A stretch of DNA of 64,000 nt, from contig NZ_VULR01000005.1 of the NCBI RefSeq assembly GCF_009696605.1, positions 1 through 64,000 on the forward strand. The letters are read 5' to 3'. Below, piece by piece: positions 6,490 through 45,725 of the stretch (positions are counted from its first letter, which is position 1; every line of letters starts with the position of its first letter). A program made the position numbers and the translations under genes. The notes under the pieces were generated by a model, which worked only from the letters and a program-made list of their open reading frames with translations, was not told where the DNA came from and did not search any database. The DNA is from Anaerosalibacter bizertensis (GTDB lineage Bacteria; Bacillota; Clostridia; Tissierellales; Sporanaerobacteraceae).

Positions 6490-6523
6490 TTAACTCTCTC
6501 CCTATCCCTTTGAATACAGTTTT

Positions 6524-7972: not shown

Positions 7973-7991
7973 TTATTTCACCTCAGTTAAT

Positions 7992-8010: not shown

Positions 8011-8037
8011 CCCCAAATGGCTATTTTTACAGTTCCA

Positions 8038-24824: not shown

Positions 24825-24839
24825 ATTGCTACCTCCTTC

Positions 24840-26384: not shown

Positions 26385-26934
26385 TTATCATTTCCTCCTC
26401 ATTTACAGTTATTAATAATTTTTCTAGTAGCTCTTCTCTTTCTAAAAATAGTTGTTTTCGCCTTCTATTCAGGCTATTTACTTTTCCTAGTTTTCTTTGA
26501 AATTCAATATTAGGTAATTTAATATTTATTTTTCTAAATTCGTTTATAGGAATACTCATAATTATTGAGCCTTGTTTAATTTTATGAAGTTCTCTTTTAA
26601 AACTTTCACTTTTATCTATATACCATTCTAAATAGTCTGGATCTACAGTATCTCTATTTTTAACCTTTATGATTATATAATTTGAAGGTATAACCTTTCC
26701 TAAATCTGTCTTTTCTGCTTTTTTAGCATTATAGGATGTAAGATTGAGTAATATCATATCTTCTTCTACTAGCGGTATGTTTTGATTAATTTCTTCTGTA
26801 AGCTTTGGTACTGCTACACTAGATTCATTTTCAAAGGAATATACTGTCCTTTCCTCTGTTTCAATAGTACTATTTATTCTAATCCTACTTAAAGGTATAC
26901 CTTGGGTTATTTCCACTATTTTTTCAAGTCTCAT
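26377..26934 (-). CDS. Half-size HsdS-like specificity protein
   Basis: 185 residues with one target-recognition domain only: an N-terminal RLEKIVEITQGIPLSR start, the SYNAKKAEKTDLGKVIPSNYIII core strand, KQGSIIMSIPINEFRKINIKLP, and a C-terminal helix with QRKLGKVNSLNRRRKQLFLEREELLEKLL. Normal HsdS has two such units. It lies between hsdR and hsdM in frame with the operon, so it is not an obvious pseudogene. It could dimerise into an alternative specificity subunit, regulate the operon, or be a relic of duplication. Confidence 0.72.
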   Translation of the reverse strand: MRLEKIVEITQGIPLSRIRINSTIETEERTVYSFENESSVAVPKLTEEINQNIPLVEEDMILLNLTSYNAKKAEKTDLGKVIPSNYIIIKVKNRDTVDPDYLEWYIDKSESFKRELHKIKQGSIIMSIPINEFRKINIKLPNIEFQRKLGKVNSLNRRRKQLFLEREELLEKLLITVNEEEMING

Positions 26935-26945
26935 TCCAACCCTCC

Positions 26946-29705
26946 TTATTTATATTCTTCTGCTACTTCTCTTATAAATATTTCTAGTTCTTGAGTTTTT
27001 TCAACATTTTCTAAAAAAGAGTATTTTGCTTCTGTCAAAGTATCGCTTATTTCTTCTTTATCTATTATTCCACTAAATTCATACTCTTGTATCAATCCTT
27101 CTACTTGTTCTTCTGGAAGTCTATTCTTTACTGCAAAGTCATTTATGACTCTTTCTTTTCTTTCTATTTCAAACTCTGTAAATGCATTGTCTATAGAATC
27201 TTCACTGTCTAATTTTGGTACTACTTTATCTAAAAATTCTTTAATAAGTTCTACTTTATTTCTAAGTTCTATACTATCAGCTCTATCTAATTCTTTTATG
27301 ATATAGTTTATATCTTCTTTTCGTTTTTCTTCATTTTCCAAATCTATCTCTCTAATTAAATTCATAATATAATCTACATTTATCTTGTCTCTATGCATTA
27401 TTTCAAGAGCAAAATCTATATCATCAAGAATAGAAACTTTTTCTATTTTATTCTTATCGTGATTTTCTTTAATAAGTAGATACTTACTTCTATAATCTTG
27501 ATAATCTTGAATATCCATTCCTATTTTTTCTTCTGTGAATTCAAATTCATTAAAATTTTCCATTCTGATTAAAGTCTTAGTTAAGTCTCTAAAAACTACT
27601 ACAAACTCTTTTTGTTTTTCTTCACTTTCCATACTGTCTATACTTTCAGGTGTTGGAGCAATACTTAAAAGTGCATTTACTTGTTCTTTGAACAATGCTA
27701 AATACTCATCAAAAGACTTAGCTAAAACTGAATCTATATCATCAGTTTTTGAGAATGTTCTTAAAGCTTCATCTGTAGCTTCTTTTAAATTTCTAAAACA
27801 TACTATATTTCCATATGGTTTTTTATCAGAGTCAAGTCTATTAGTTCTTGAATATGCTTGAAGTAAATTGTGATATTTTAAGTTCTTATCTACATAAAGT
27901 GTATTTAGTTTTTTAGAGTCAAATCCCGTTAAAAACATATTTACAACTAAAAGTATATCTATCTTTGCTTCTCTTACTTTCTTGTCTACATCTGCTCTAT
28001 ATCCATCATAATTATCTGTAGAAAAATTAGTATTAAACATTTCATTATAATCATTAATCATTCTTTCTAAGCTATCTCTTCCATGAACTTTTCCTTCGCT
28101 TAAATCTGGATTTTCTTCATAGCTAAATATACTAGCTATTTTAAAATCATGGTCCAATTCTTTAAATTTATCATAATATTTTACTAAAGATTCTACACTG
28201 TCAGTTGCAAATATTGCATTATATCCCTTACTTCTTGATCTTTGATCATGGTATTGTATTATATGTCTTGCTACCAAATCTATTCTTTCCTCTGCTTGCC
28301 ACACTTCTTCTGTATTTATAGCTTGAACTTTTTCTGCAGCTATTTCATCTAATTTAGCTCCTAATGTATTTACATAGGTTACTGAAAAACCTAGAACATT
28401 TCCATCATGGATTGCATCTTTTATAAGGTAATAATGTAAACATTTATCAAATAGATCTGCTGTAGTTCTATCATCTTCTGATTTATTTTCTGGAAGTCTT
28501 GGAGTACCTGTAAATCCAAAATATTGGCTGTTTTGGAAATGCTCTTTTATAGCTGTATGCATCTTTCCAAATTGAGATCTATGACATTCATCTATTATGA
28601 ATATAACTTTTTTATTTCTATAGGGTTCCATGATATCTTTATACTTAGGGTTTTTAATGGCATTACTCATTTTCTGAATAGTAGTAACTATAATAGGATT
28701 CATAATGTCTTTTATTTGTTTTACTAGATTTTCTGTACTATCTGTTCTATCTACTGAACCTGGTTGAAAATCATTAAACTCTTTTTCTGTCTGATGGTCT
28801 AAATCTTGTCTATCTACTAAGAAAAATACCTTATCTATACTTTCTTCATTAGAAAGTATTTGACTTGCTTTAAAAGAAGTTAGTGTTTTACCTGACCCTG
28901 TTGTATGCCAAATATAACCGTTATTATTAGTTTCTAAAGCTCTTTTTACTATTTCTTCTACTGCATATACTTGATATGGTCTTAGTACTAGCAATTGTTT
29001 TTCTGTTTCTTTAAGTACCATATATCTTGCTATCATCTTAGATATATGACATTTTTCTAAAAACGTTGTGCTAAAATCTTTTAAATTTGTAATTCTATTG
29101 TTTTCTTTATCTGTCCAAAAGAAAGTATATTTATAATTTAAATTTCCATCAGAATTTGCAAAATACTTTGTATCCACACCATTTGATACTACAAATATTT
29201 GAATATATCTAAAAAGTCCTGTATATGACTGTACTTTATATCTGCAAATTTGATTAAATGCTTCTTTCATATCCAATCCTCTTCTTTTTAGTTCTATTTG
29301 AACTAATGGCAGGCCATTTATAAGTATTGTTACATCATATCTATTTTCATACTTTCCCCTTACTGTAACTTGATTTGTAACTTGAAATAAATTTTTGCAC
29401 CATTTTTGTGTATCCATTATAGTAAGGAAAAGTCTTTCACCATTCTCTCTTTCGATTTCAAGTTTATCTCTTAAAATCTTAGCTGATTCAAATACCCCCT
29501 TACCTTCAATCCTGTTCATAATTATTTGAAATTCTTTATCTGTAAGAGGTTTTCCTTTCAATTTATCTTCGTTAAATTTACTAATCTGTTTTCTAAAATT
29601 ATTCTTTAAATCTTCTTCACTATTTATATTAACTAATTCATAGCCATTTCTACTTAGTAACTTCAAAAGATTTTGTTCTAATACTGCTTCAGATTGATAT
29701 GACAA
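26946..29705 (-). CDS. hsdR: Type I restriction endonuclease subunit R
   Basis: Motor and nuclease subunit of about 920 residues. The N-terminal nuclease domain has a D...ExK site (YDVTILINGLPLVQIELKRRG). The SF2 translocase follows: Walker A TGSGKTLTS, DECH box (IDECHRSQFGKMH), motif III TGTPR, and motifs V-VI DILLVVNMFLTGFDSK with QAYSRTNR. A helical C-terminal domain binds HsdM/S. The frame opens at a GTG (29714) that falls within the ribosome site AGAAAGGGTGG; the TTG at 29705 (then SYQSEAVLEQ) is better spaced. Confidence 0.92.
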   Translation of the reverse strand: MSYQSEAVLEQNLLKLLSRNGYELVNINSEEDLKNNFRKQISKFNEDKLKGKPLTDKEFQIIMNRIEGKGVFESAKILRDKLEIERENGERLFLTIMDTQKWCKNLFQVTNQVTVRGKYENRYDVTILINGLPLVQIELKRRGLDMKEAFNQICRYKVQSYTGLFRYIQIFVVSNGVDTKYFANSDGNLNYKYTFFWTDKENNRITNLKDFSTTFLEKCHISKMIARYMVLKETEKQLLVLRPYQVYAVEEIVKRALETNNNGYIWHTTGSGKTLTSFKASQILSNEESIDKVFFLVDRQDLDHQTEKEFNDFQPGSVDRTDSTENLVKQIKDIMNPIIVTTIQKMSNAIKNPKYKDIMEPYRNKKVIFIIDECHRSQFGKMHTAIKEHFQNSQYFGFTGTPRLPENKSEDDRTTADLFDKCLHYYLIKDAIHDGNVLGFSVTYVNTLGAKLDEIAAEKVQAINTEEVWQAEERIDLVARHIIQYHDQRSRSKGYNAIFATDSVESLVKYYDKFKELDHDFKIASIFSYEENPDLSEGKVHGRDSLERMINDYNEMFNTNFSTDNYDGYRADVDKKVREAKIDILLVVNMFLTGFDSKKLNTLYVDKNLKYHNLLQAYSRTNRLDSDKKPYGNIVCFRNLKEATDEALRTFSKTDDIDSVLAKSFDEYLALFKEQVNALLSIAPTPESIDSMESEEKQKEFVVVFRDLTKTLIRMENFNEFEFTEEKIGMDIQDYQDYRSKYLLIKENHDKNKIEKVSILDDIDFALEIMHRDKINVDYIMNLIREIDLENEEKRKEDINYIIKELDRADSIELRNKVELIKEFLDKVVPKLDSEDSIDNAFTEFEIERKERVINDFAVKNRLPEEQVEGLIQEYEFSGIIDKEEISDTLTEAKYSFLENVEKTQELEIFIREVAEEYK

Positions 29706-29760
29706 TAGGACCACCCTTTCTCAAAATGTCTAAATAGATCATTACTACTTAAATATAGTT

Positions 29761-29826
29761 GTTATTTTGTATAATAACATAATACCATTTAAAATAATTT
29801 TGTCAATAGTTATTATTTATAATAAC
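29761..29826. promoter_or_regulatory. Two palindromic operator-like sites flanking the hsd promoter
   Basis: GTTATTAT-N2-ATAATAAC (29809-29826, perfect 8+2+8) lies just upstream of the -35 box. A degenerate copy, GTTATT-N6-AATAAC (29761-29778), lies just past the -10 box near the expected transcription start. This arrangement suits a dimeric repressor controlling restriction gene expression. No candidate repressor gene is adjacent. Confidence 0.6.
29779..29806 (-). promoter_or_regulatory. Promoter of the hsd operon
   Basis: Minus strand TTGACA (29801-29806), 16-nt spacer, TATTAT (29779-29784), about 75 nt upstream of hsdR. Palindromes abut both sides. Confidence 0.75.
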
Positions 29827-29832
29827 ATAAAA

Positions 29833-30199
29833 TCATTTTATAACAATATATAAATAAAATTTGGATACTTTTCTCATTGCAGGAATAAAGATATCGTTAT
29901 AGCCACCTGATTGTCTAAATGATTTCATAACTTCCATTAGTTTTTTATCTATAAAGAGTCCGCTCTCTTTAAATAAAGAAAAGTCACATTCTTTGTTGGA
30001 ACAATAAAAATTCTTCTTTCCTTCAAAAATGTGACTCTTACATATTGGATAATTCCCTAATACTTCTCTATTTGATTGAAATTTTTATTAAGACTAATTT
30101 TATACTCTTAAATCCTAGATTTATGACTTCCTTCCCTATATCTACTATTAGAGCTAATGTAGGTGTTTGAACTCTTCCTACACTTAAAGAAGTATTGAT
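29833..30199 (-). pseudogene. Remnant of DNA topoisomerase III (topB)
   Basis: Two broken frames. 30068-30199 reads LSVGRVQTPTLALIV, the signature that follows the active tyrosine region of type IA topoisomerases, then runs to a stop. After a frameshift, 29833-30084 reads a zinc-ribbon-like stretch, with cysteines in NYPICKSHIFEGKKNFYCSN and KECDFSLFKES, then a helical tail. This order and the Cys-rich end fit topoisomerase III, with the N-terminal two thirds and the middle lost. No start codon or ribosome site is left. It separates the type I operon from the MmeI-like gene. Confidence 0.68.
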
Positions 30200-32166
30200 T
30201 TAGTATAAAGTTTCATTAAATATTCAACACAATCTGATTCAGAATCTATATCCCATGATTTACCATAAGCCTCCCACACAGCTTTATCTAGTTCTTTATG
30301 GGCCTTTAACAAATCTCTAGGCATAAATAATGGATCATATAAGTCTGCATAACTCCAATCCTTATATTTTTGTCTTACTTTTAAAACCAACTCCGCTTTT
30401 TTAGAAACTATTATTTTAACTTTCTCATTTGTCTTAGACCATGGAAAATTATTATATACTATATTTTTAGAATATTTATAATCTCCTTTTAGTCTGCCTC
30501 CTACTACTCTCATCCATGCGTTATGAACATTGGAAGTTAATATTCCAAAATGATATATACTTGCATTAGGCATTATCAAAACAGCATCACTTGCTATACT
30601 ATTAGTTGACATAAATCCTATTGGAATATACTTTCTATTTTCTGATGTTACCCTAGGAATTAACAGATAATTGCTTTTGGAAATATTTGTCGTTTGAAAC
30701 TTAGTAGGTGTATTTGCTATTTTTAAAGTATTTTTTCTAGTACTCTTTAATCTAAATTCTCTAACATTCTTAACTCTTTCCATAACAAGAGACATAGTTC
30801 TTATTTTGCTTGGTTTTAAATCTCCTAAGTACAAGCAATATCTTGGATTGTTATTTATAAACTCCCTTGCACCATACCATTCCATGAAATACTTTTTAGA
30901 TTGAGGCTCCTCTTTTATAAACTTTTCCATTTCCTCTTTTGTAAATAAATAATTCCCATCATCTATTGGTTGATTACCCATACCTATTTCTTGAACATCA
31001 CATAATGGCTTTCTTCTAGACTCTATATAAACATTATCAGCATCTACTAAATAACCATTGATATTCTCAACTTCTTGAAACGTCCCTTCATTTTCATATA
31101 TTATCTTTTTATCAATTCTCTTATTCATACTAGAAAAACCTATTATAACACAATACACAGCTGCTTTATATTTTGCATCATTACTCCATTTAAATGTTCT
31201 ATAAGCAAAATCTATCTTGCAAAAATTGTCTTCTAATATATACTTCCACAAAATACTAACCTGTTCTCCTTGACATATGCTATTAGTAGAAACAAAAGCA
31301 ACCCTTAAATCTTTATTTCCTTTTATCATTTTTGCAGACTTAGCATACCAAGCTGAAACATAATCTAAGTTTCCTATGTTTTTTATACCGTTAAAGACAA
31401 GGTTTATATCAGAGTTTTGTTCACTATTCATTAATCTAGCACCCACAAATGGAGGATTTCCTATAATATAATCTAGTTCTTTAGCATCTATTAATTCATT
31501 CCAATCTATTCTTAGGGCATTAGTATTAATAATATTTGCATTTTCTCTTATTGGAAAATCTATTATATTAAAACCGAAATAATTACTAATTTTTTGATCC
31601 ATTAAATGCTTTATAAGTATCATGGATACTTTAGCTATCTCTACAGGAAATTCTTCGTACTCTATACCATAAAATTGATTTATATGTACTATATTTTTTG
31701 CTCCTATCATTTGAAGTTCTCTATGATCATAAATCATTTTCATAACTTCAAATTCTAATTCTCTTAACTTTTGATAAGCCATTATTAAAAAGTTTCCTGA
31801 ACCACAGGCAGGATCTAAAAACTTTAATAATGCTAATTTCCGTTGAAAATTCTTAAGTTCTTTAACCGTACTTTTGGATCTTTCAAATTCATCATATAAT
31901 TCATCTAAAAATAAAGGCTCTAATACCTTCATAATATTTTCTTCAGATGTGTAATGAGCTCCTAAATTCCTTCTCTGCTCTTGGTCCATAACTCCCTGGA
32001 ATATAGCACCAAATATAGCTGGATTTATTTCTGACCAATTAAACTTACAGCATTCTAATAAAAGATTTCTCATATTTTGATTAAATGAAGCTAATGGTAA
32101 ATCCTCTTTAAACAAATTACCATTTATATATCTAAATCTTTTTAATTCTGGGGATAAATTATTCAT
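30184..32166 (-). CDS. MmeI-like adenine DNA methyltransferase portion (gene broken)
   Basis: 660 residues homologous to the methylase and recognition part of MmeI-type single-chain restriction-modification enzymes: LGAHYTSEENIMKV, AdoMet motif FLDPACGSGNFLI, catalytic GNPPFVGARL, a long C-terminal recognition region and a final helical bundle. Intact relatives have about 900 residues with a nuclease domain in front; here that domain is in a different frame (32159-32473) and the linker between the two, about 150-200 residues, is missing. The frame is long and clean, so a solitary methylase could still be made. The 3' end abuts the topoisomerase remnant. Confidence 0.75.
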   Translation of the reverse strand: MNNLSPELKRFRYINGNLFKEDLPLASFNQNMRNLLLECCKFNWSEINPAIFGAIFQGVMDQEQRRNLGAHYTSEENIMKVLEPLFLDELYDEFERSKSTVKELKNFQRKLALLKFLDPACGSGNFLIMAYQKLRELEFEVMKMIYDHRELQMIGAKNIVHINQFYGIEYEEFPVEIAKVSMILIKHLMDQKISNYFGFNIIDFPIRENANIINTNALRIDWNELIDAKELDYIIGNPPFVGARLMNSEQNSDINLVFNGIKNIGNLDYVSAWYAKSAKMIKGNKDLRVAFVSTNSICQGEQVSILWKYILEDNFCKIDFAYRTFKWSNDAKYKAAVYCVIIGFSSMNKRIDKKIIYENEGTFQEVENINGYLVDADNVYIESRRKPLCDVQEIGMGNQPIDDGNYLFTKEEMEKFIKEEPQSKKYFMEWYGAREFINNNPRYCLYLGDLKPSKIRTMSLVMERVKNVREFRLKSTRKNTLKIANTPTKFQTTNISKSNYLLIPRVTSENRKYIPIGFMSTNSIASDAVLIMPNASIYHFGILTSNVHNAWMRVVGGRLKGDYKYSKNIVYNNFPWSKTNEKVKIIVSKKAELVLKVRQKYKDWSYADLYDPLFMPRDLLKAHKELDKAVWEAYGKSWDIDSESDCVEYLMKLYTKSILL

Positions 32167-32473
32167 TCTTTTTTCTATCTGGTTTTAAAGAGTGAACATA
32201 GCCCATAGCTTGTGTATATGCTTTGGCTAAAGATTGTCCCTTAGACTTCATTTCAATTAGGATTTTTCCTGGCATAAAATAGTCAATATATCCTATAGAT
32301 CCATCTTTCAAAGTTATTTGATGTTCATGAAATCCATCTTTCCAGTCAACTCCAAATATATTCATAAAATCTTTTTCAAAAGTTTGACCCTCTTGTCTCT
32401 CATTACCATCACAGTTTTTCCAATGCATTTGAAATTTGACTGCTCTATCTTCAATTTTGTTCCAACTTAACAT
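32159..32473 (-). pseudogene. N-terminal nuclease domain of the MmeI-like enzyme (detached)
   Basis: About 104 residues from MLSWNKIEDRAVKF to a stop just past the ATG of the methylase frame. It carries the PD-(D/E)xK pattern of MmeI-type enzymes: YIDYFMPGKILIEMKSKG, with Asp, Glu and Lys of the active site. GGGGAG precedes the ATG at 32473. The overlap ATGAATAA with the next frame reflects a deletion and frameshift in a once single gene. Cleavage by this fragment alone is unlikely. Confidence 0.7.
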
Positions 32474-32587
32474 AGCTAACTCCCCTAGCCCAGTATTACT
32501 TGTTAAAAATATCATTTCCATATATTAATTTTTAATACACAGCTATTGGGAATTGATTATTTTACCGACATTTTTAAATAATATTAT

Positions 32588-34490: not shown

Positions 34491-35158
34491 CTAACTCATA
34501 GTTTCGTCTGAAGTCTTCGAAGGTTCAGCTTCATCTATAAGATTATAAAAATCTATCACTGGGTAATTATTTTTATCCTTAAGTATCTCTCTTATTTTAT
34601 TATAATGATAATTAGAATGCTCTAAAACCCTATATTTATATTTACTCCACTCTATTTCTAATTTTCTTATATCTTTAATACTTGATATACTATTTATACA
34701 TTTAATGGCTGAAAGATTCTTATCTTTAACTTCAAGCATAATATCTATTTCATCATCTAATTTATTACTGAAACTCGTAAATTCAGTTAAATCTATTGTC
34801 CTCGAATGAGAACCTGGTCTTTTTTCCAAGTTTTTTTACATTTATTTATAAAGTATAATTCGTCTTTAGATTTATCATAAGGTAATATCTTATTGTGGAG
34901 ATTATCAAATACTACTGGTATGTCTAATGTTTTTCCTATTTTTAGAACATCTCCAATATTGTAGGATTTGTCATCATTTTCAATAACCAGCCTATCCTTA
35001 ACTTTAGGAGAAAGGAGATTATAATTATGGATAAATCTATCTATAGCTTTTTCTTTATCACCATATACTCCTCCTATATGAAGGACTATCTTGCTATCCT
35101 TTAACAAAATGGAATTTTTGTGGAACATAGGAAATAGTAATCCCCTAACAAGCAACAA
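34491..35158 (-). pseudogene. uvsE: UV-damage endonuclease (UvsE), 5'-truncated and frameshifted
   Basis: Two overlapping frames together match the middle and end of UvsE: KIVLHIGGVYGDKEKAIDRF, LVIENDDKSY and VVFDNLHNKI in the first, then KRPGSHSRTIDL and IDIMLEVKDKN in the second. They join at the A-run near 34812-34820 (TWKK|RPGSHS), so a single-base change broke the gene. About 110 N-terminal residues are absent: the frame begins at a TTG inside the last codons of hypA. Not functional as a repair enzyme. Confidence 0.8.
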
Positions 35159-35486
35159 TCTCTTTGATTAAAAACTCCCTACCACAAAGTAATTCCCAAT
35201 CTTCGCTCCCGCAACTTGGACATTCTCCCTTATGTTCAATTAAATTAAATACCTTTTTACAATTATCACATATACAATTGCCTGGCAATATTTCAATTTC
35301 TAATTTCGTATTCTGTAGCATAGTTCCATCTACCGCAGCTGGATAACAGGCTTGGACAAATCTTGGTACAACTGAAGACAGTTCTCCAATTTGAAGTACT
35401 AATGTGTCAATTTCTGTGATTCCATTTTGTTTTGCAAAATTTTCAACTGTTTCTACAACATTAATCATAATTCCTAGCTCATGCAA
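35145..35486 (-). CDS. hypA: Nickel-insertion protein HypA
   Basis: A 113-residue metallochaperone that delivers nickel to hydrogenase or urease precursors with HypB. It begins with the Ni-binding MHELG (His2, Glu3) and has the structural zinc site, CDNCKKVFNLIEHKGECPSC. Length and both ends are complete (GREFLIKEIVAC). Third gene of an operon with hypB and a flavoprotein; no other hyp gene or hydrogenase is in the window, so the client enzyme is elsewhere or not a hydrogenase. Its last codons overlap the truncated uvsE. Confidence 0.92.
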   Translation of the reverse strand: MHELGIMINVVETVENFAKQNGITEIDTLVLQIGELSSVVPRFVQACYPAAVDGTMLQNTKLEIEILPGNCICDNCKKVFNLIEHKGECPSCGSEDWELLCGREFLIKEIVAC

Positions 35487-35523
35487 ATTAATTCACCCCT
35501 ATCTGCTAATAAATAAAGAATAT

Positions 35524-35545
35524 AGGGTGGGTATTATCCCACCCT
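35524..35545. repeat. GC-rich hairpin between the oxidoreductase gene and hypA
   Basis: AGGGTGGG pairs with CCCACCCT around TATTAT. There is no good T-run on the minus strand, so it may attenuate rather than end transcription into hypA. Confidence 0.5.
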
Positions 35546-35560
35546 TTTATTCTTCAAATA

Positions 35561-38254
35561 CTAACTTGATTTATCTTTTTTACCAGTAAAGGTTTTTTTG
35601 ATACTATGGGTTATCATTCTACCTTTACGTGCAATTACATTTTTAACGATTACTGGCTTTAAATCCTCAAATTCCACATTTTGAGCATCATATTTCCTTA
35701 CAAGAGATATAGCATCAAATTTACATTTAGTAGTACATTGTCCGCATCCTATGCACAGATACTCATCTACAACTGTAGCTCCGCAACTTAGACAACGTTC
35801 TGTTTCTTTTCTAACTTGATCCTTTGTAAGAGTTGGTCGTAAATCTTTAAAAGAGGTCTTAGCCTTATCACCGTCTACATGTGGTGTTCTTTGTCTTGGA
35901 AGACGGTCATAGCCTGCCAAGTCTATATTTTCCTTATCAAATGCCTTAAATTCTCTTCTATCTCTACCAAGTATTAAATCCTGTCCTGGTTGAACATAGC
36001 GATGGATCGAAATTGCTCCTTCCTTTCCTAAAGCTATAGCATCAATTGCAAATTTAGGTCCTGTAGCAACATCTCCACCTGCAAATATATCTGGTTCACC
36101 TGATTGTAATGTAAATGGATCTACTTTAATTGTATTGTTTGGATTTAATTCTACTTTTGAACCTTCTAATAGTCTACCCCAATCTATTGATTGGCCTATT
36201 GAAAGCAACACCTTATCTGCCTTAACAACTTTTGTATCATTTTCATCAAACTTAGGACTAAATCTTCCATCTTCATCAAAGACCGATAGACACTTTTTAA
36301 ATTCTATTCCTACAACATGTCCATTCTCTGTAACAATACGATTAGGACCCCAAGAATTATTTACACCTATGTCTTCAGACATTGCCTCTTCAATTTCTTC
36401 ATCAAGGGCTGGCATTTCTTCTCTGCTTTCCAAACAGTACATCTCAACTGTTGAAGCTCCCGCCCTTGTAGCTGTTCTTGCTACATCTATAGCAACGTTA
36501 CCGCCACCAATAACTACAATGTCTCCCTCCATGTCTACATCTTTACCTAAATTAACATCCAATAAGAAGTCCACCCCAGATATAACCCCTTCTGCCTCTT
36601 CTCCTTCAATGCCTAGTTTTCTACCAGATTGAGCACCAATTGCAAGATAAAATGCTTCATATCCCTGATTTCTTAGTTCATCAAGAGTAATATCTTTCCC
36701 TACTTCTATACCAGTTTTAAATTCTACTCCTAATTCCTTTAATATGTTAACTTCTGCATTTACTACATCTTTTTCTAACCTATATGAAGGAATTCCAAGG
36801 GTTAGCATACCACCAAGAGCCTCTTGTTTTTCAAATACTGTTACATTATAACCATCTATGGCTAAATAATATGCACAAGAAAGTCCAGAAGGTCCAGCAC
36901 CTACGATAGCAATTTTCTTTCCATAATTGTGCCTTTTCTTAGGTATATATCGCACATCTGCATTTAAATCTTGTTCTGCAATAAATTTTTTAATATCATC
37001 AATAGCTACAGGCTCGTCTACATCTCCTCTAGTACATACTGATTCACATTTTCTAGGGCAAATACGTCCACATACTGCTGGAAAAGGATTTTGTTTTTTG
37101 ATTAATTCCAATGCTTCTGTATATCTTCCTTGAGAAGCTAATTTAATATAACCTTGTACAGGAATATGGGCCGGACATTGGGTTATACAAGGGCTAGTTC
37201 CACTTTCTAAAACATTTTTTCTATTAATTCTATAATCTGGATTCCATTTATCTGGTCCCCATTTACTATTGGATGGTAAATCTATTCTTTCCTCAATAAC
37301 TTGTGCTTCTTCACATAATTTTTGACCTAATTGGAGTGCATTAACAGGACAAACCTGAACACATTCACCACAAGCTACACATTTATCCTTATCTACATGA
37401 GATACATAATTTGAACGTACCATATCATTGTTTAAAAACATTGTAGCAGTTCTTAAAGAGAAACAACTACAACTACAGCAATTGCAAATAGCATGGGTTT
37501 TTCCCGGCCCGTCTGTATTAGGAATTTGGTGCATTAAACCGTTTTCCTCAGCTTTCTTTATGATTTCAAAAGCTTCTTCCCTAGTTATCTGTCTGCCTCT
37601 ACCGGTTCGTATATAGTATTCAGCAGCATGATCTAATTGGATACACATATCTTCTTTTAAATGTCCACAGCCTTCTCCCATAATCTCTCTAGCTGTACGA
37701 CAAGAACAGTCTGAAACAGAGAAAACTTCAGCTTCATTTAGATATTTTGATATTTCCTCATAGGATGCCCTTCTACTTTCACCATCAATAGCCATTTCAA
37801 TAGGAATAACACGCATAAGACCTGTTCCTACTGGGAATATTCCTGCTGTTTGAGGGCCTCTTATCCTTCCGTAAGCCTCAAAAGCCTCAGCAATTTGAGG
37901 GTACTTCCTAACATTTTCCTTATTATTCACCATCATTTCCATAACCCCAGGTATCCAGGTTTCAAGCCAATATTTATCTACTCCATCTTTATCTCCAACA
38001 AAACAAGCACCTGCAACTGCTAATTCCCACAAAAGTTTTCCTGTTTCTTTTACAGGTTTTCCACATATTTTTGCCACTTCTTCTGCACTCTTAGGTTTCC
38101 TAAACTCCAAACAAAGTCCCACTTCTGCCATTTCATCTGTAACAACAGGTTCCAAAATCATATATTCAGGATCTGTATATTTATATGATGATTTAGAACC
38201 ATGTTTTTTACCGCCTATGTGATTAGCTAGTTGCAATACTTTTTCTTTTGTCAT
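35561..38254 (-). CDS. Large FAD/NAD(P) and Fe-S oxidoreductase (GltD-like)
   Basis: 897-residue multi-cofactor protein. Around residue 188 and 260 are unusual Cys clusters (SDCSCRTAREIMGEGCGH; CNCCSCSC). A ferredoxin motif CVACGECVQVCP lies near 295, then a GltD-type N-terminal Fe-S domain (CITQCPAH to CGRICPRKCESVC, about 356-400), an FAD-binding VGAGPSGLSCAYYL (about 450), an NAD(P)-binding VIGGGNVAIDVART (about 583), and a last ferredoxin-like motif CIGCGQCTTKC (about 836). It should move electrons between a pyridine nucleotide and low-potential Fe-S partners. Its place between hypB and hypA suggests a role in metal-centre maturation or reduction; that is inference. Confidence 0.8.
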   Translation of the reverse strand: MTKEKVLQLANHIGGKKHGSKSSYKYTDPEYMILEPVVTDEMAEVGLCLEFRKPKSAEEVAKICGKPVKETGKLLWELAVAGACFVGDKDGVDKYWLETWIPGVMEMMVNNKENVRKYPQIAEAFEAYGRIRGPQTAGIFPVGTGLMRVIPIEMAIDGESRRASYEEISKYLNEAEVFSVSDCSCRTAREIMGEGCGHLKEDMCIQLDHAAEYYIRTGRGRQITREEAFEIIKKAEENGLMHQIPNTDGPGKTHAICNCCSCSCFSLRTATMFLNNDMVRSNYVSHVDKDKCVACGECVQVCPVNALQLGQKLCEEAQVIEERIDLPSNSKWGPDKWNPDYRINRKNVLESGTSPCITQCPAHIPVQGYIKLASQGRYTEALELIKKQNPFPAVCGRICPRKCESVCTRGDVDEPVAIDDIKKFIAEQDLNADVRYIPKKRHNYGKKIAIVGAGPSGLSCAYYLAIDGYNVTVFEKQEALGGMLTLGIPSYRLEKDVVNAEVNILKELGVEFKTGIEVGKDITLDELRNQGYEAFYLAIGAQSGRKLGIEGEEAEGVISGVDFLLDVNLGKDVDMEGDIVVIGGGNVAIDVARTATRAGASTVEMYCLESREEMPALDEEIEEAMSEDIGVNNSWGPNRIVTENGHVVGIEFKKCLSVFDEDGRFSPKFDENDTKVVKADKVLLSIGQSIDWGRLLEGSKVELNPNNTIKVDPFTLQSGEPDIFAGGDVATGPKFAIDAIALGKEGAISIHRYVQPGQDLILGRDRREFKAFDKENIDLAGYDRLPRQRTPHVDGDKAKTSFKDLRPTLTKDQVRKETERCLSCGATVVDEYLCIGCGQCTTKCKFDAISLVRKYDAQNVEFEDLKPVIVKNVIARKGRMITHSIKKTFTGKKDKSS

Positions 38255-38283
38255 AGATTTCCCTCCAATTTGAATTTACATTC

Positions 38284-38955
38284 TCACTGTTCCTGCCACT
38301 TTTTTATTTCATCAAGAAGCCAATCCGCCCATTCATCAATGCCTTCCCCTGTTTTTGCAGAAATAGGGATAATTTTAATATTTGGATTTAGCTTTTTTGC
38401 CCTTTCTTTAACAGCTTCTAAATCGAAGTCAAAATAATCCATGGTATCAATTTTATTAATTAATAAAACATCTACCTTCGAAAACATTAGAGGATACTTC
38501 AAAGGTTTGTCATCTCCTTCTGGTACACTTAAAATCATAGCATTTTTAGATGCACCAGTATCAAATTCTGCTGGACACACTAGATTACCTACATTTTCTA
38601 AAATAATAAAATCTATATCATCTGCACCAAGTCCTAATAAACCTTGTTTTGTCATATCAGCATCTAAATGGCACATTCCACCGGTATGCAACTGAATAAC
38701 CTTTGTACCAGTTTTAGCAACTGCATGAGAATCCACATCAGAATCAATATCTGCCTCCATGACACCAATATTAATATCTGATTTTAAAGCTTCAATAGTT
38801 CTTAAAACTGTAGTTGTTTTACCTGAACCTGGTGATGACATGAGATTTAATAAAAAAGTTTTTCTCTTTTTCAATTCTTCTCTAAGCAAATCTGCTTGTC
38901 TGTTATTGTCTTTAAAAACGCTTTCCTTGATTTCTAAAACTTTAAAACTCTTCAT
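38284..38955 (-). CDS. hypB: Hydrogenase/urease nickel-incorporation GTPase HypB
   Basis: GTPase that drives nickel transfer together with HypA. The SIMIBI-class P-loop SSPGSGKTT lies near residue 41, followed by EADIDSDVDSH, the metal-site HTGGMCHLDADM, LENVGNLVCPAEFD and the base-recognition NKID. The 223-residue form lacks the His-rich and CxxCGC N-terminal extensions, so it is the minimal HypB without nickel storage. First gene of the hypB-oxidoreductase-hypA operon, behind promoter module A. Confidence 0.93.
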   Translation of the reverse strand: MKSFKVLEIKESVFKDNNRQADLLREELKKRKTFLLNLMSSPGSGKTTTVLRTIEALKSDINIGVMEADIDSDVDSHAVAKTGTKVIQLHTGGMCHLDADMTKQGLLGLGADDIDFIILENVGNLVCPAEFDTGASKNAMILSVPEGDDKPLKYPLMFSKVDVLLINKIDTMDYFDFDLEAVKERAKKLNPNIKIIPISAKTGEGIDEWADWLLDEIKKWQEQ

Positions 38956-39042
38956 ATTTTATTCCACCTTCCCATAAATTTTTATTTAACTTTGCATTTT
39001 ACAGGATATTTTGATGAAAATTGTTATTATTTTATCATTTTC

Positions 39043-39071
39043 ATTGTATGCAAAATAGAAATAGTTGTCAA
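39043..39071 (-). promoter_or_regulatory. Promoter of the hypB operon (module A)
   Basis: Minus strand TTGACA (39066-39071), 17-nt spacer, TACAAT (39043-39048), about 90 nt upstream of hypB. Confidence 0.8.
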
Positions 39072-39081
39072 AAAAAACAAA

Positions 39082-39217
39082 CGTTGAGATTTCAATGCTT
39101 ATCCACTTTATATTTTAAGTTCAGTTTACACTTATAGTAATGAAAAGACTCATATTTTAAAATTAAACTTGAACTTTTCTTAAATATATATGTAAACTTA
39201 ACTTGAATGTAAAAAAC
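39082..39217. promoter_or_regulatory. Upstream control region A, shared with the fmdE promoter
   Basis: Three blocks upstream of the -35 box: an imperfect palindrome CGTTGAGATTTCAATG (39082-39097); a 27-bp block 39105-39131 containing AAGTTCAGTTTACA; and a distal inverted counterpart TATATGTAAACTTAACTT (39187-39204) followed by GTAAAAAAC (39209-39217). The same blocks occur at 42997-43132 with identical spacing. The region has no open frame. Confidence 0.75.
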
Positions 39218-39300: not shown

Positions 39301-40428
39301 CTATAATCCTTCTTTCAAATTTATCTTAATATATCCACCATATTTTTCGGCCATTATGTTGTATAATGGTTTACCTAACATAAAAGTATATATCTCATCT
39401 GCTTTTTCTATGACATCAATATCTTTAAACTCATTAGGATATAAAGTCTTGCCTAGAAAATATATATCAGCCATAGCAGTCTCAATATTATTATAATATG
39501 AAACATATGGCAATTGACCATATACCTTGTCATTTTTTACAGCAGATAATTCATTATAATAATCTGGATTTTTATTATAATCTTCATTTACAATATTCAT
39601 TCCATTTTCATCAATTATAAGTATATCTGGATCCCATTCTATAAGTTGTTCCTTATCGATCATTATAGAACCAGATTTTCCTATTTCATCTGCAACATTT
39701 TTAGCACCAATGATATCCAATACTGGAGAATTTCCAGTTGTACTTTCAATTCCATGAACCCCTTTATAGCTTAATCCTCCCATGTATACACTTGGTTTTT
39801 TATCTTCTGGAATATCCTTTGTAAGATTGGTAAGTTCAGTCTTACAGTCCTCCATATATTCAATTAACTCCTTTGATCTTTCTTCCTTTCCAACTATTTT
39901 GCCAATAATAGTTAGTGCCTTATACATATCTTGATCAAAAACTGCTGAGGAACCACAATTTACAATTACAATTGGTACCCCTATTTTTTTCTGAAGCTCT
40001 TCTATTTGAGCTATATCTAAAATATCTCCAGCAATAATAACATCAGCATTTACATCTATAAGTAATTCTGGATCTGGGTTGGCTGGAAACCCTTCTCCTA
40101 TTATTGGAATCTTTTCTAATTCAGGATTAGCAATTATATATGGTCGTCCAGTTTCTTTAGACTGCTGCTTTCTTTCAACTCCTACAAGTTTTTCAGTTCC
40201 ATTGACATAAGTATAAAGCCTAAGGGCAGAACCTATTGCCACTACTCTTTCAACAGGTCTATCTAAAACAATGTTACGCCCTGCCATATCTGTTATTTCA
40301 ATAACATGGGAACTATCTTTAGTTTCATCCTCTTCTACTTTTGCTGATTGTTTAGATTGAGTACATCCAGTCAATATTGATAATAAAAACATCATTATTG
40401 CTAAAAATATACTTAATTTTTTCTTCAC
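39301..40428 (-). CDS. Metallophore-type ABC transporter substrate-binding lipoprotein
   Basis: Captures a metal complex outside the cell. The start is a GTG at 40428 (ribosome site AAGGGGAG), giving a signal ending in the lipobox LLSILTGC. The mature part is a two-lobe, helix-linked binding protein of the FecB/BtuF type: VIEITDMAGRNIVLDRPVERVVAIG, NADVIIAGD, IGAKNVAD, LIEWDPDILIIDE. Ligand could be an iron, cobalamin, nickel or molybdenum chelate. Last gene of the fmdE-permease-ATPase-binding protein operon. A 12- to 13-bp AT-rich hairpin (39239-39272) follows the stop. Confidence 0.88.
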   Translation of the reverse strand: MKKKLSIFLAIMMFLLSILTGCTQSKQSAKVEEDETKDSSHVIEITDMAGRNIVLDRPVERVVAIGSALRLYTYVNGTEKLVGVERKQQSKETGRPYIIANPELEKIPIIGEGFPANPDPELLIDVNADVIIAGDILDIAQIEELQKKIGVPIVIVNCGSSAVFDQDMYKALTIIGKIVGKEERSKELIEYMEDCKTELTNLTKDIPEDKKPSVYMGGLSYKGVHGIESTTGNSPVLDIIGAKNVADEIGKSGSIMIDKEQLIEWDPDILIIDENGMNIVNEDYNKNPDYYNELSAVKNDKVYGQLPYVSYYNNIETAMADIYFLGKTLYPNEFKDIDVIEKADEIYTFMLGKPLYNIMAEKYGGYIKINLKEGL

Positions 40429-40487
40429 TTTTTTATCTCCCCTTTCTTTATTCACCAATAAAAATTTTAATCTAATATTTAAATGAT

Positions 40488-41240
40488 TTATATAGGGATA
40501 ACTACTGGAATACCTGAAAATTCTTCTATTGCAACATCAATATCATATACATTTTTAATCAATTCTGAATTTAAAATTGTAGCATCACCAAAATCAAATA
40601 CTTCACCTTCTTTTAGCAGAAGAAATTTGTTAGCAAAACGTAATGCTAGATTCAAATCATGCATGGCAACTATTGCTGAAATCTTTCGTTCATTAACAAT
40701 ATACTTAATTGTCTTAAGCACTTCTATTTGATTTTTTAAATCAAGATTGCTAGTAGGCTCATCCATTAACAAAACCTTTGGTTCTTGAACAAGTGCCCTA
40801 GCTATAATGACTTTTTGAAGTTCACCACCGCTAAGTTCATTAGTATATCTCATAGAATAGTTTTCTAAATTTAACAATTTTAAAACATTTTCAACAATAT
40901 CAATATCTCTTTGAGTTACATCCCATTTTATATAAGGTTTTCTTCCAAGTAAGATAGAATCAAAAACTGTTTTTTTTGAACAATCATGGCTTTGTGGCAC
41001 ATATGCAATGTTCTTTGCAAGTTCTGGACCTTTTAATCTAGAACTATCGATGCCATTAATATATACAACACCTGATTGTGGTTTCAATATTTTGTTTAAA
41101 CATTTCAAAAGAGTAGATTTTCCAGCTCCATTAGTTCCTAAAACTGCTAGATAATCTCCTTGTTTTAGTGAAAATGCTATATTATTGATAACATCCTTTT
41201 TTGGATATGAAAAACTTATATTATTAACTAATAAGGTCAT
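40488..41240 (-). CDS. ABC transporter ATP-binding protein (FecE/BtuD type)
   Basis: ATPase subunit, 250 residues: Walker [13 protein letters not shown]-loop AYVPQSH, signature LSGGELQKVIIARAL, Walker B LLMDEPTSNLD and the switch His in AMHDLNLAL. It starts immediately after the permease stop codon (41241), so the two are coupled. Chelate-import family by closest motif pattern. Confidence 0.93.
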   Translation of the reverse strand: MTLLVNNISFSYPKKDVINNIAFSLKQGDYLAVLGTNGAGKSTLLKCLNKILKPQSGVVYINGIDSSRLKGPELAKNIAYVPQSHDCSKKTVFDSILLGRKPYIKWDVTQRDIDIVENVLKLLNLENYSMRYTNELSGGELQKVIIARALVQEPKVLLMDEPTSNLDLKNQIEVLKTIKYIVNERKISAIVAMHDLNLALRFANKFLLLKEGEVFDFGDATILNSELIKNVYDIDVAIEEFSGIPVVIPI

Positions 41241-42320
41241 CTATTCACTCTCCTTTATAAGAAAATAAATGAACAACGGTGCTCCAAGAAAAGATGTTAC
41301 AGCCCCTACTGGTAAAGTCTGCGGTGATAATACTACTCGTGCTAGTGTATCAGATATGAGTAATATAAGGGAACCCATGATTGCTGATGTAGGTATAAGG
41401 TATCTATTATCACTACCTACTAATCTCTTTGCTATTTGAGGAGATATTAAACCAATGAAACCTATTATTCCTAAAAAAGATACAATAACAGCAACAACAA
41501 TTGATGCCACAAACATTCCACTTAGTCTAACCCTCTCAACATTTACTCCTAGACTCTTTGCAGTATCATCTCCACTATCTAGAGCATTATAATCCCATCT
41601 ACGATATATAAAATAAACTATAGATGCCAAAATTAATATTCCCATCATTATAATTTCATCCCAAGATGCCCTACCTAAATCTCCAAAAGTCCAAAATATA
41701 ACAGCAGCTACTTTAGTTGTATCTTCTGAAAAATATTGAATAATCATAGTACCTGCTGAAAAAAGTGAACTTAATGCTACTCCCGCTAAGACTATGCTTT
41801 GTGTAGAAAAATATCCTAATTTTGATAAACTAATAATCAATAGTGTGGAACCTATTGAAAAAGCCATTGCACAAATTGTAACGATATAAGGATTTAAAAT
41901 TTGTATATCGCCTAATCCAGTATTTACTACATTACCTGCCCCTAACAAGATAATAGCAACATTGGCTCCAAAAGCAGCAGCATTTGATATTCCAAGTGTA
42001 GAAGGGGATGCTAATGGATTTTTTAAGTTATTCTGCATAATACATCCTGCTACTGATAACCCTGCACCTGCTAGTATTCCTGCTACTACCCTTGGCATAC
42101 GAATATTCATTACTGTAGAAATTGATTTAGTGTCTCCTAATCCTAAAATAGCTAAAACTACCTGTTTAGGCCCAATACTCATAGCACCAGCATTTATAGC
42201 CAAAAAAAATACAATAATAGTAGCAATCAGTAAAGCAATAATGATAAGCCTTTTCTTGATTATATGTTTTTTATATTCATCATATTGAAATAATAGCTCT
42301 TTATCTTTATTAATATCCAC
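41241..42320 (-). CDS. FecCD/BtuC-type ABC transporter permease
   Basis: 359 residues with about ten membrane helices. Family landmarks are RMPRVVAGILAGAGLSVAGCIMQ near residue 85 and GFIGLISPQIAKRLVGSDNRYLIPTSAIMG near the C-terminus (the ATPase-contact helix). The start is GTG at 42320, with the ribosome site inside the end of fmdE, 3 nt before. Imports the chelate delivered by the binding protein. Confidence 0.92.
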   Translation of the reverse strand: MDINKDKELLFQYDEYKKHIIKKRLIIIALLIATIIVFFLAINAGAMSIGPKQVVLAILGLGDTKSISTVMNIRMPRVVAGILAGAGLSVAGCIMQNNLKNPLASPSTLGISNAAAFGANVAIILLGAGNVVNTGLGDIQILNPYIVTICAMAFSIGSTLLIISLSKLGYFSTQSIVLAGVALSSLFSAGTMIIQYFSEDTTKVAAVIFWTFGDLGRASWDEIIMMGILILASIVYFIYRRWDYNALDSGDDTAKSLGVNVERVRLSGMFVASIVVAVIVSFLGIIGFIGLISPQIAKRLVGSDNRYLIPTSAIMGSLILLISDTLARVVLSPQTLPVGAVTSFLGAPLFIYFLIKESE

Positions 42321-42323
42321 AGA

Positions 42324-42848
42324 TTACCACCCTCTTGAATATTCATTAAAACAGTCTAGACAAACTTTCTTACCTCCCTGAATTCGAATTTTATTCTCAG
42401 AAGCCATTTCGTTGCATTTTTCACAAGCTATGGTATCAAATATTCTTGCTTTCTCTGGCAATTCAATATTAACCTCTTCAACTTTAAATATATTTTCTTC
42501 TGGACCTTCTAAAATATATTGTTGTCTTTTTTCCCTTTCCATTTCTCTATCATTTTGTTTTAATATTAATCTAATACTTCTTCCATCTTTTCGTCTTATA
42601 AAGGTAAAAGCCATCTTTCCTGTATCTTTGAAAATTAGATTACCTTTTCCTAGTGTACAACTAGTTATGACTTGGATTGCATCTACACCACATGCATCAT
42701 TTTCTGTTATACAAACTATTTCCTCATCTCTAGAAAAACTTAATGACATTTTCTCTTTTGCTATTTCGGCTGCCCTAAATCCAATAGCTAAACCAGGGCA
42801 TTCATGTCCATGAAATTCAACACATTTTTTCCATAATTCCTTATCCAT
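42324..42848 (-). CDS. FmdE-family metal-binding protein
   Basis: 174 residues related to subunit E of molybdenum formylmethanofuran dehydrogenase, a family widespread in bacteria without that enzyme. It shows FHGHECPGLAIGFRAA and ENDACGVDAIQVITSCTLGKGN with conserved His and Cys, and a C-terminal zinc ribbon (CEKCNEMASENKIR ... CLDCF). Family members often sit beside metal-chelate ABC importers, as here, where it is the first gene of the operon. A role as an intracellular metal acceptor or sensor is plausible but unproven. Confidence 0.85.
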   Translation of the reverse strand: MDKELWKKCVEFHGHECPGLAIGFRAAEIAKEKMSLSFSRDEEIVCITENDACGVDAIQVITSCTLGKGNLIFKDTGKMAFTFIRRKDGRSIRLILKQNDREMEREKRQQYILEGPEENIFKVEEVNIELPEKARIFDTIACEKCNEMASENKIRIQGGKKVCLDCFNEYSRGW

Positions 42849-42957: not shown

Positions 42958-42986
42958 ATTTTATATAAATTTAAAATGTATGTCAA
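42958..42986 (-). promoter_or_regulatory. Promoter of the fmdE-ABC operon (module B)
   Basis: Minus strand TTGACA (42981-42986), 17-nt spacer, TAAAAT (42958-42963), about 110 nt upstream of fmdE. Confidence 0.8.
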
Positions 42987-42996
42987 AAAACAAGGA

Positions 42997-43132
42997 TGTT
43001 GAAATTTCAACGTTCATTAACTTTATATTTTAAGTTAAGTTTACACCTATGATAGAAATGAATGGCATATTTAACATTCATTCCAAAGGTTTTTATAGCA
43101 CTATATGTAAACTTCACTTAAAAGTAAAAAAC
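42997..43132. promoter_or_regulatory. Upstream control region B, shared with the hypB promoter
   Basis: Contains the perfect palindrome GTTGAAATTTCAAC (42998-43011), a 27-bp block 43020-43046 with AAGTTAAGTTTACA that differs from module A at one position, and a distal inverted counterpart TATATGTAAACTTCACTT (43102-43119), then GTAAAAAAC. Distances from the -35 box are the same as in module A (34 and 116 nt); only the 55 bp between the inverted elements is not conserved. Confidence 0.75.
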
Positions 43133-43245: not shown

Positions 43246-44499
43246 TTAAAAGAATCTATCTATCAGATTTTCTGAATATCGAATACAATTTTCAATTGAA
43301 AGCATACTCATGATTTCCCCTGCTAAAAATATATTGTTTTTACCCTGAATAGATTCCATTTTATCATAAAATCCATTTTCTAATGTATGAGTATCTACAT
43401 AGGGACAATGTTTCCAACACTTAGTCTGATAAAGTCTTGCATTTTTTACTCCTAACCTTGATAAATCATCCTTAATATAATCTAAGGATGATTTCTTAGA
43501 ATTAAAAGGAGGATTGTATGCATAAAGTATCACCATTTCCTCATCATTAGACACATCCCATCTAGAATCCCATATAGTAATATGTCCACGTCTACTAGGG
43601 GATAAGTTTTCCAATATACAACCACATCCTTCTGGAACCTTGTCTACAATGAAGGCATATACATTAAAAATTTGATATTTTATATTACTTAAACATTTCT
43701 TTGTATCCTCGTCCCAAAGATTTAGATGTGAAAATTGTTCCAGTGGAACAGTAATAATAACTTTATCAAACTCAAGTCTTTCAAATTGAGTTTCTAGCCA
43801 TATGGTTCCTTTTGAGGATAAGGAAATGTCTATTACCTTTTGTCCTAATCTAATATATTTAATTTTCCTACTCAAGTGTTCTGCCAATATAGAAACCCCA
43901 TCGTTCCATGTGTAAAACTCTGGAATCTTCATAAAAGACATTAGATGATCATAATTCATAATTCTGAGTACATAAAGAGCGGGAACTTCTTCAATATTGC
44001 CTAAACCAAAGATAGTGAAGTAGTGTACATAAATAGTTTTTAAAACTTTAAATTTATGCATATCACACCACTTTGAAAAGGGTAACATCAATGGTTTTTC
44101 TGTATTTTTAGCACTAATATTTTTCAATGATTTGTACTTATCCAGTACTAGGGGCAATCTTTCTAACTCCTCAATAAATCCTTCTAAATCTTCTTTAGGT
44201 AATGGCATAATTTTTTGACCATCTGCATTATAATTAGTCCGTGATAGTTTAGGACCATCTGCTTTTATATTTAATCTTTTCATCAATAATTTAAGATTTA
44301 AATAAGAAGGTAGTCCAAAAATTGCACCTAATTCATAAGACTTCTCATTGTAACAGATAGTATGTAGCTTACCACCTAGACGTTCTTCTTTTTCAAAAAC
44401 GGTAGTATTTTCATATCCCCTTCTGTATAAGCCTTCAGCTATAACCAAACCAGAAAGCCCTCCACCTATAACTGCAATCCTACAGTCTCTCTTATTCAT
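43246..44499 (-). CDS. FAD-dependent amine-oxidase/protoporphyrinogen-oxidase-like protein
   Basis: 417 residues with the FAD-binding VIGGGLSGLVIAEGLYRRG at the N-terminus, an FEKEERLGGKLHT second FAD strand, and a C-terminal IFLAGEIMSMLSIENCIRYSE that closes the flavin site. These are the landmarks of the flavin amine oxidase family. The substrate is unknown, and no haem or carotenoid genes are nearby. It starts 10 nt after the transposase-like gene, with GAGGTGG as ribosome site, so the two are co-transcribed. Confidence 0.78.
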   Translation of the reverse strand: MNKRDCRIAVIGGGLSGLVIAEGLYRRGYENTTVFEKEERLGGKLHTICYNEKSYELGAIFGLPSYLNLKLLMKRLNIKADGPKLSRTNYNADGQKIMPLPKEDLEGFIEELERLPLVLDKYKSLKNISAKNTEKPLMLPFSKWCDMHKFKVLKTIYVHYFTIFGLGNIEEVPALYVLRIMNYDHLMSFMKIPEFYTWNDGVSILAEHLSRKIKYIRLGQKVIDISLSSKGTIWLETQFERLEFDKVIITVPLEQFSHLNLWDEDTKKCLSNIKYQIFNVYAFIVDKVPEGCGCILENLSPSRRGHITIWDSRWDVSNDEEMVILYAYNPPFNSKKSSLDYIKDDLSRLGVKNARLYQTKCWKHCPYVDTHTLENGFYDKMESIQGKNNIFLAGEIMSMLSIENCIRYSENLIDRFF

Positions 44500-44509: not shown

Positions 44510-45556
44510 TCATTTTGAATAATTAATCAGTGCTAAAAGCCAAAGTGGTAATGTATCTAAATCAGCGCCATTTTCTATTGCCCTTTCTAAAACAACTTCA
44601 GCAGGTGTTTTTCCTGCTTTAGGTCCATTAGGAATTATACTGTGAAAATTATATTTCCTTATAAAATCATTAATGGCAGCTTCAACTTTTACAAAAGAGT
44701 CTAATTTGTCATTTAAAGGAATTTTATTGTAAAACTCCATCATTAAAAACTCATTAAACTCTCTCATACCATCTAATATATCAATATATTCAGGAGAAAT
44801 AAATATATGATTAATATTAAAATCTTCTAAGATCTCTTTATATTTATTACCTTTCACAAAGTAAGGTAAAAACTCTCTTTCCTTTTCAGTAACTAAATTT
44901 TCAATATTTAAACTAAAAGTTTCCAATAGATAAATTAACTTGCGTTCAAAATAATGCCAAATATCAATATCCTGCTTCTTATTGTATATTTTTACCTCTC
45001 CCCATCTTGAAACAGTGTCATAAAAACTATATTGATATATCCTACCTATTCCCTCAAAAGTGCCTATAAAATCAATTCTCTGAATTACTAAATAGCCTGG
45101 ATAAGAATCCTTTGCATTTGAAAAAATAGACATATCCTTTTTATCCCTTTTCTTGATATTTATATGTGATTTTTCATCCATAGAATATTCTATTCTCTGG
45201 GCTTTTCTTGTTAAATTATATCGTTTAAGCACATTATAAATTCCTGTTTCTCCTATATCAAATCCTTGGGATATTAATTCATAGTAAATCCTCTTAGGCC
45301 CATCTGCTGGATATTTTGTAACATATGATAATATTTCTTGTTCAATATCTTTACTGACTTTATTTGGCATTTTAGGCTTTCTGCGTTCTCTATTATCCAA
45401 TCCAGCCATTCCATGTTTCTCATAAGCATTTTTCCAATTATAAAATGTTGTTCTTGATATTCCAAACAATTCACATGTTTGAGAAACGTTATTCCCTTTC
45501 AAAGCATGTTGTAATATCTTATATTTAGTATATGCATTAAACCCCTTAGATCTCAT
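44510..45556 (-). CDS. IS481/IS3-like transposase-derived protein, probably domesticated
   Basis: 348 residues. Residues 1-120 have two helix-turn-helix units (NNVSQTCELFGISRTTFYNW; then DGPKRIYYELISQGFDIGETG). From about 155 an integrase-like fold follows: strand with Asp162 (VIQRIDFIG), SFYDTVSRWGEVKI, then ISPEYIDILDGMREFNEFL with Glu266. The second catalytic acid, normally in a TDNGSEF motif, is replaced by TEKEREF (Glu224). There are no terminal inverted repeats around the gene, and it is coupled to a metabolic gene. These points suggest a regulatory or structural role rather than transposition. Confidence 0.72.
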   Translation of the reverse strand: MRSKGFNAYTKYKILQHALKGNNVSQTCELFGISRTTFYNWKNAYEKHGMAGLDNRERRKPKMPNKVSKDIEQEILSYVTKYPADGPKRIYYELISQGFDIGETGIYNVLKRYNLTRKAQRIEYSMDEKSHINIKKRDKKDMSIFSNAKDSYPGYLVIQRIDFIGTFEGIGRIYQYSFYDTVSRWGEVKIYNKKQDIDIWHYFERKLIYLLETFSLNIENLVTEKEREFLPYFVKGNKYKEILEDFNINHIFISPEYIDILDGMREFNEFLMMEFYNKIPLNDKLDSFVKVEAAINDFIRKYNFHSIIPNGPKAGKTPAEVVLERAIENGADLDTLPLWLLALINYSK

Positions 45557-45725
45557 AATAGCCCCCCTTTATTTAAAAGGAAACTTATCAGTTGTTTTAA
45601 CTTCAAATATATGTTTACATAATAATATCATATAACCCTTTATAAAAAAAGTAGAACAAATATTTATAATATTTTTAAAGATAATTAGATCTTTTTATAC
45701 TATGAAATAATAATTAAAATCATAT

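Follow-up and report, generated by a model that had tools for sequence, protein, structure and literature searches.

Transcription factors derived from transposases are well known in eukaryotes, and among bacteria the TldR proteins are derived from TnpB. The TldR proteins are described as RNA-guided transcription factors (PMC13418256), and they would share with the protein considered here, tnpL, the conversion of a bacterial transposon protein into a transcription factor, whereas TnpB is a nuclease guided by RNA and tnpL is of the DDE transposase type with a helix-turn-helix (HTH) DNA-binding domain. A review of recruited prokaryotic mobile elements lists HTH regulators derived from antitoxins and phages, as well as Cas1 (PMC8987985). 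In the open-access literature, where TldR was found, no report of a bacterial regulator derived from a DDE transposase was found; earlier reports elsewhere are possible.

The known systems closest to that of tnpL include the IS481 family, whose ends start with TGT and whose target duplications step by about one helical turn (PMC10045372). The HTH domain joined to an RNase H-like core, the TGT tips and the discrete lengths about a helical turn apart are common to this family (ISfinder; PMC10045372) and the tnpL system; however, tnpL lacks the D-D-E triad, the terminal repeats and an intact second copy, its gene neighbourhood is fixed, and the associated arms lie at promoters with their tips inward. 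The synaptic complexes of IstA (IS21) and of retroviral integrases (8b4h, 8q4d, 7pel) resemble tnpL in the HTH region and the core fold; these proteins are active enzymes that bind paired ends, and the comparison covers the fold alone. The putative isoprene reductase operon of Acetobacterium wieringae encodes an oxidoreductase of about 900 aa with NADH, FAD and 4Fe-4S sites together with HypA and HypB (PMC10134865), the same combination as at the tnpL locus, and DUF5692 proteins are neighbours in the wider family in both cases; the regulators mentioned there are TetR or an unnamed HTH protein, along with predicted Fur/NikR sites, and none is derived from a transposase. The flavoprotein gene next to tnpL, here called AO, encodes a homologue of the Propionibacterium acnes fatty-acid (CLA) isomerase PAI (2b9w), to which it is similar in full-length homology, fold and the equivalents of Arg88 and Phe193, making it a putative isomerase; unlike PAI, it is coupled to tnpL.

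The analysed window comprises 64,000 nt of Anaerosalibacter bizertensis contig NZ_VULR01000005.1 (positions 1 to 64,000), in which the following genes and protein regions were considered:

44510-45556, minus strand: tnpL, domesticated IS481-type transposase-like protein of 348 aa, proposed regulator
45179-45535, minus strand: two HTH units of tnpL, residues 8-126 (Pfam matches, model and alignment)
44657-45103, minus strand: RNase H-like core of tnpL, residues 152-300, D-D-E triad missing (model, structure matches and alignment)
43246-44499, minus strand: AO flavoprotein, homologue of 2b9w and partner of tnpL
42324-42848, minus strand: fmdE (FmdE and zinc ribbon), proposed target
39301-42320, minus strand: FecCD-type ABC transporter (permease, ATPase and binding protein), 3' of fmdE
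38284-38955, minus strand: hypB, nickel GTPase, proposed target
35561-38254, minus strand: isrA-like NAD(P)H/FAD/4Fe-4S oxidoreductase of 897 aa, proposed target
35145-35486, minus strand: hypA, last gene of the hypB-isrA-hypA operon (from the sequence and the same end position in the operons of relatives)

Elsewhere in the window, at 23706-32521, Type I restriction-modification-like genes were seen (specificity, methylase and helicase subunits, assigned by eye); a second large methylase-like protein comes after them.

The tnpL protein exceeded the Pfam cut-offs for HTH_28, HTH_29, HTH_32 and HTH_Tnp_1, and it matched the NCBIfam IS481 profile over residues 11-321 with 132.6 bits, under the cut-off of 224 bits. 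Its AlphaFold2 model (pLDDT 85.6) contains an RNase H-like integrase core, for which the top matches among solved structures were the IstA transposase and retroviral integrases. Within the main clade the mean pairwise identity was about 71% for the HTH units versus about 62% for the core. The catalytic triad columns were set by aligning two annotated plasmid IS481 transposases, both with D, D and E, and by this yardstick the triad was present in none of the 35 family members. The first column, in which the placement of the Asp may be off by one or two residues, holds R/W/Q/K/G/S, the second E/K/N/F/D/Q/A/V/C/Y and the third R/N/D/M/K/S/T/Q; Asp162 near the first column is common in the main clade and gives way to N, G, S, T or E in other members. 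Where true IS481 proteins have the TDNG motif, tnpL has TEKE. An HTH protein with an integrase fold, the TEKE substitution, the lack of terminal repeats and the coupling to a flavoprotein gene had all been described from the sequence-only reading, and each of these was confirmed.

No convincing terminal inverted repeats were detected around the gene, and a search of the genome for many near-identical copies with such repeats, which the earlier reading had named as the mark of an active insertion sequence, yielded one intact tnpL and one frameshifted paralogue on contig C15 beside a broken flavoprotein gene. Further intact or near-identical copies were absent from this genome, whose other transposases were distant matches; no relatives were found in viral contigs, and the plasmid matches were ordinary IS481 proteins at about 30% identity. 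The contig C15 locus (L065, 6326-11690) holds, besides the paralogue and the broken AO, a half-conserved operator pair and a flavoprotein and ferredoxin-reductase-like gene; it is a second system in decay. A tnpL remnant with a stop codon was seen in another genome (G044; L066, 8047-8397), in which an isrA-like gene was absent at the search threshold.

In about 30 genomes from several clostridial families tnpL was found, always with AO as partner and almost always beside the hypB-isrA-hypA operon. A GTDB genome scan returned 14 full-length orthologues with 58-92% identity in Tissierella, Clostridium, Alkaliphilus, Vallitalea, Anaeromonas and MAGs. AO lay directly 3' of tnpL in all 14 scan loci and in every later locus with a visible neighbour, and hypB and/or the iron-sulphur flavoprotein of about 897 aa was next in line in 12 of the 14; in nearly all tnpL loci hypB and/or isrA adjoins or comes a few genes downstream. 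Three homologues of 28-31% identity have tnpL-AO divergent from hypB and the iron-sulphur gene. Surveys of the order, class and phylum showed a single tnpL per genome with unchanged neighbours. The AO start lies 10 nt past the tnpL stop in the window, and the two genes overlap in many relatives. With dN/dS values of 0.07-0.22, tnpL is under purifying selection. Single-copy orthologues, selection and conserved synteny, the last two having been proposed earlier as a check, strongly support from comparative sequence data that tnpL is domesticated. An ordinary insertion sequence decaying without function beside the operon would account for the transposase-like profile match and for the frameshifted paralogue; given purifying selection, an AO pairing conserved across families, the absence of terminal repeats and the lack of another intact copy, this is the least credible of the explanations weighed, and the conservation had already refuted it.

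The elements upstream of the target genes and of tnpL were as follows:

43020-43131, minus strand: candidate operator pair before fmdE, arms at 43106-43131 and 43020-43045, tips inward, 60 bp apart
39105-39216, minus strand: candidate operator pair before hypB, arms at 39191-39216 and 39105-39130, tips inward, 60 bp apart
45594-45619, minus strand: weak half-site 5' of tnpL, present otherwise in the sister species alone
42958-43019, minus strand: predicted fmdE promoter, hairpin and T-run, then TTGACA (42981-42986), 17 bp and TAAAAT (42958-42963)
39043-39104, minus strand: predicted hypB promoter, hairpin and T-run, then TTGACA (39066-39071), 17 bp and TACAAT (39043-39048)
39020-39036, minus strand: conserved box GATAAAATAATAACAAT just 3' of the -10, from site comparison

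Each pair consists of two inverted arms with the 26-bp consensus TGTAAACTATACTTGAAAGTAAAAGA, whose TGTAAAC tips face inward; this orientation was found at all loci, the outward one at none. The two pairs scored 57-58, and no score above 20 occurred in 4 Mb of first-order Markov sequence. Scanning the whole genome with the pair profile returned strong sites only before fmdE (E 1.8e-17) and hypB (9.9e-15), the next-best site having E=0.59. Column identity was 0.83-0.85 for the arms versus 0.55 for the spacer. Among 41 pair matches in total, a few being the same site counted twice, the gaps between inner tips fell at 48-50 or 58-62 bp, apart from gaps of 71 and 82 bp at one site each and of 84 bp at a weak pair that was counted three times in overlapping loci. 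These steps resemble helical turns; the periodogram does not favour 10.5 bp, a 12-bp period fits at least equally, and, the loci being mutually related, phasing by helical turns is no more than a suggestion.

The inverted pairs before fmdE and hypB had been noticed earlier with a distance of about 55 bp; the pairs are real, the distance is 60 bp. The motif TATGT-AA-ACATA that had been pointed out at 45610-45621 is present as well. Taken as a half-site it scored 6.5, versus 26-32 for true arms and 8.8 for the maximum of 200 null sequences. Autoregulation through this site, suggested at the time, was rejected on the weak score and on conservation that extends no further than the sister species.

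Inverted arms around a short segment, close to a gene for a protein with an integrase fold, might also point to a recombinase still able to invert or move that segment (phase variation). This is very unlikely, since the catalytic triad occurs in no member, the promoter lies outside the inter-arm segment and the spacer keeps its orientation among close relatives (same orientation 0.64-0.95 versus inverted 0.27-0.38), on which ground an invertible switch was rejected.

Sigma-A-type promoters are predicted 3' of the right arm, with a TTGAC-like -35 and 17-19 bp to the -10 in 33/34 sites; from the end of the right arm to the -35 the distance was 33-37 bp, likewise in 33 of 34. A hairpin palindrome with a T-run lies in between (39072-39104 and 42987-43019), at a fixed distance in about 30 loci. 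In the hairpin alignment 74% of the cells pair, and the covariation of 0.249 exceeded all 500 shuffles and all slid versions; RNAalifold by itself predicted no structure. Hairpin and T-run may be a terminator, an insulator or the palindrome of another protein, and they probably insulate the promoter from upstream transcription. The box GAYAAAATAATAACAAT at 39020-39036 is conserved in most loci, and no convincing match to it was found in operons without tnpL.

The distribution of the pair follows that of tnpL. At the level of the order 199 genomes were surveyed; a strong pair (E up to 1e-6) turned up in 17, and exactly these 17 carry a close tnpL. Among 391 genomes of the class the pair was found in the genome of the window and in one other, which has a close tnpL. 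As tnpL and the pair are mostly within 10 kb of each other, this co-occurrence partly reflects linkage. Three genomes from two families (G053, G078 and G090), the only controls without tnpL, have kept hypB-isrA-hypA and lack the pair; their operons are accompanied by a divergently transcribed GntR/FCD (FadR-like) regulator, seen in none of the tnpL loci, an apparent non-orthologous replacement of the regulator. These genes are located at 6436-7140 (L153), 5652-6470 (L154) and 7481-8248 (L155). The three homologues of 28-31% identity are accompanied by changed arms, TGTWAACA...AAAGTAA, still inward and 62-63 bp apart, and a homologue of 43% identity by another arm variant with a 70-bp gap. Where the hypB-isrA part of the locus has been relocated (G063), no pair was found there. 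In a genome whose tnpL is 35% identical (G004), an operator-like pair was seen away from tnpL before a flavoprotein gene (L149, 5795-9952), a candidate target that comes after genes read as lysine 5,6-aminomutase subunits.

The pair could instead be the operator of a different, unlinked regulator, with tnpL employed otherwise, for example in binding nucleic acid or a partner together with AO. Such symmetry is usual for many dimeric regulators, HTH-containing relatives of transposases are common elsewhere, and the binding of tnpL is what we infer. Nevertheless, this alternative appears improbable, as pair and tnpL come and go together, the operons without tnpL have a GntR regulator and no pair, and a changed tnpL goes with a changed site. 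The proposal from the sequence-only reading, that tnpL may be a transposase turned regulator recognising paired inverted elements, passed all of these comparative tests.

The proposed targets were previously labelled a metal regulon; they are probably a nickel-chaperoned reduction system for unsaturated compounds. The isrA-like protein of about 900 aa has the domain order Fer4, Fer4_20, NAD(P)H/FAD, Fer4 and HypA/HypB neighbours, and its assignment to the IsrA type (putative isoprene reductases, clade 9) rests on this architecture and these neighbours rather than on direct alignment with IsrA. In several relatives a DUF5692 membrane protein gene lies behind a pair of its own or shares a divergent pair. 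AO is about 30% identical to 2b9w over the full length (TM 0.90, E=5e-67); the product of the P. acnes enzyme is conjugated linoleate. Across its family the equivalent of Arg88 is invariant and that of Phe193 nearly so. Both are active-site residues of the P. acnes isomerase. Since a conjugating isomerase would here stand beside a reductase proposed for conjugated double bonds, the arrangement suggests that unsaturated fatty acids or similar compounds undergo biohydrogenation, and hypB, isrA-like and hypA (35145-38955) with AO (43246-44499) form a candidate cluster for unsaturated fatty-acid or alkene reduction.

A variant compatible with regulation by tnpL would make tnpL and AO a single regulator, in which AO as a flavin co-regulator senses redox or fatty acids and gates tnpL. 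The two are always adjacent and closely coupled, and their distance matrices correlate with r=0.99 (0.89 for tnpL and the iron-sulphur protein), values that linkage alone could also give. The conserved equivalents of Arg88 and Phe193 point to an enzyme instead, as does an AO-like gene that joins hypB-isrA in a genome where tnpL was not found (G180), leaving a co-regulator role possible but rather doubtful.

The explanation preferred here, with a probability of roughly 0.8, is that tnpL is a domesticated, non-catalytic IS481-type transposase that controls its targets via the paired arms. For binding, looping, activation, signal and pathway we infer the following course. An ancestor of these clostridia would have domesticated an IS481-type transposase, whose catalytic activity disappeared and whose HTH end-binding domain and integrase fold persisted. 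A dimer or tetramer of tnpL would occupy both inverted arms on one face of the DNA, so that the intervening stretch of approximately 50 or 60 bp forms a loop. This transpososome-like complex would control the sigma-A-type promoter, which follows at a fixed distance of 33-37 bp, with activation somewhat likelier than repression (about 60:40). Under its control would stand hypB-isrA-hypA, the operon of fmdE and the transporter and, in relatives, DUF5692, which would jointly make up a nickel-chaperoned pathway reducing conjugated double bonds; AO would produce the conjugated substrate for this pathway and might also sense that substrate. Because IS481 elements have TGT ends and steps of about a helical turn, transposon ends are a plausible origin of both arms and spacing. 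Counted against this explanation were the tips-inward arms, which are the reverse of an intact transposon, and the retained core fold, for which a pure need for DNA binding would give no reason.

It is reasonably likely that tnpL represents a family of bacterial transcription regulators that arose from a DDE (IS481-type) transposase, the recognition of paired ends having become a looped operator of biohydrogenation genes and the synapse having been reused as a switch. In dozens of genomes both protein and operator can be traced, along with a change of specificity and a takeover by a GntR regulator, so that the evolution from transposase to regulator and from ends to operator is directly testable. 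Moreover, putative alkene or fatty-acid reductases that have been without a regulator gain a candidate for that role in tnpL.
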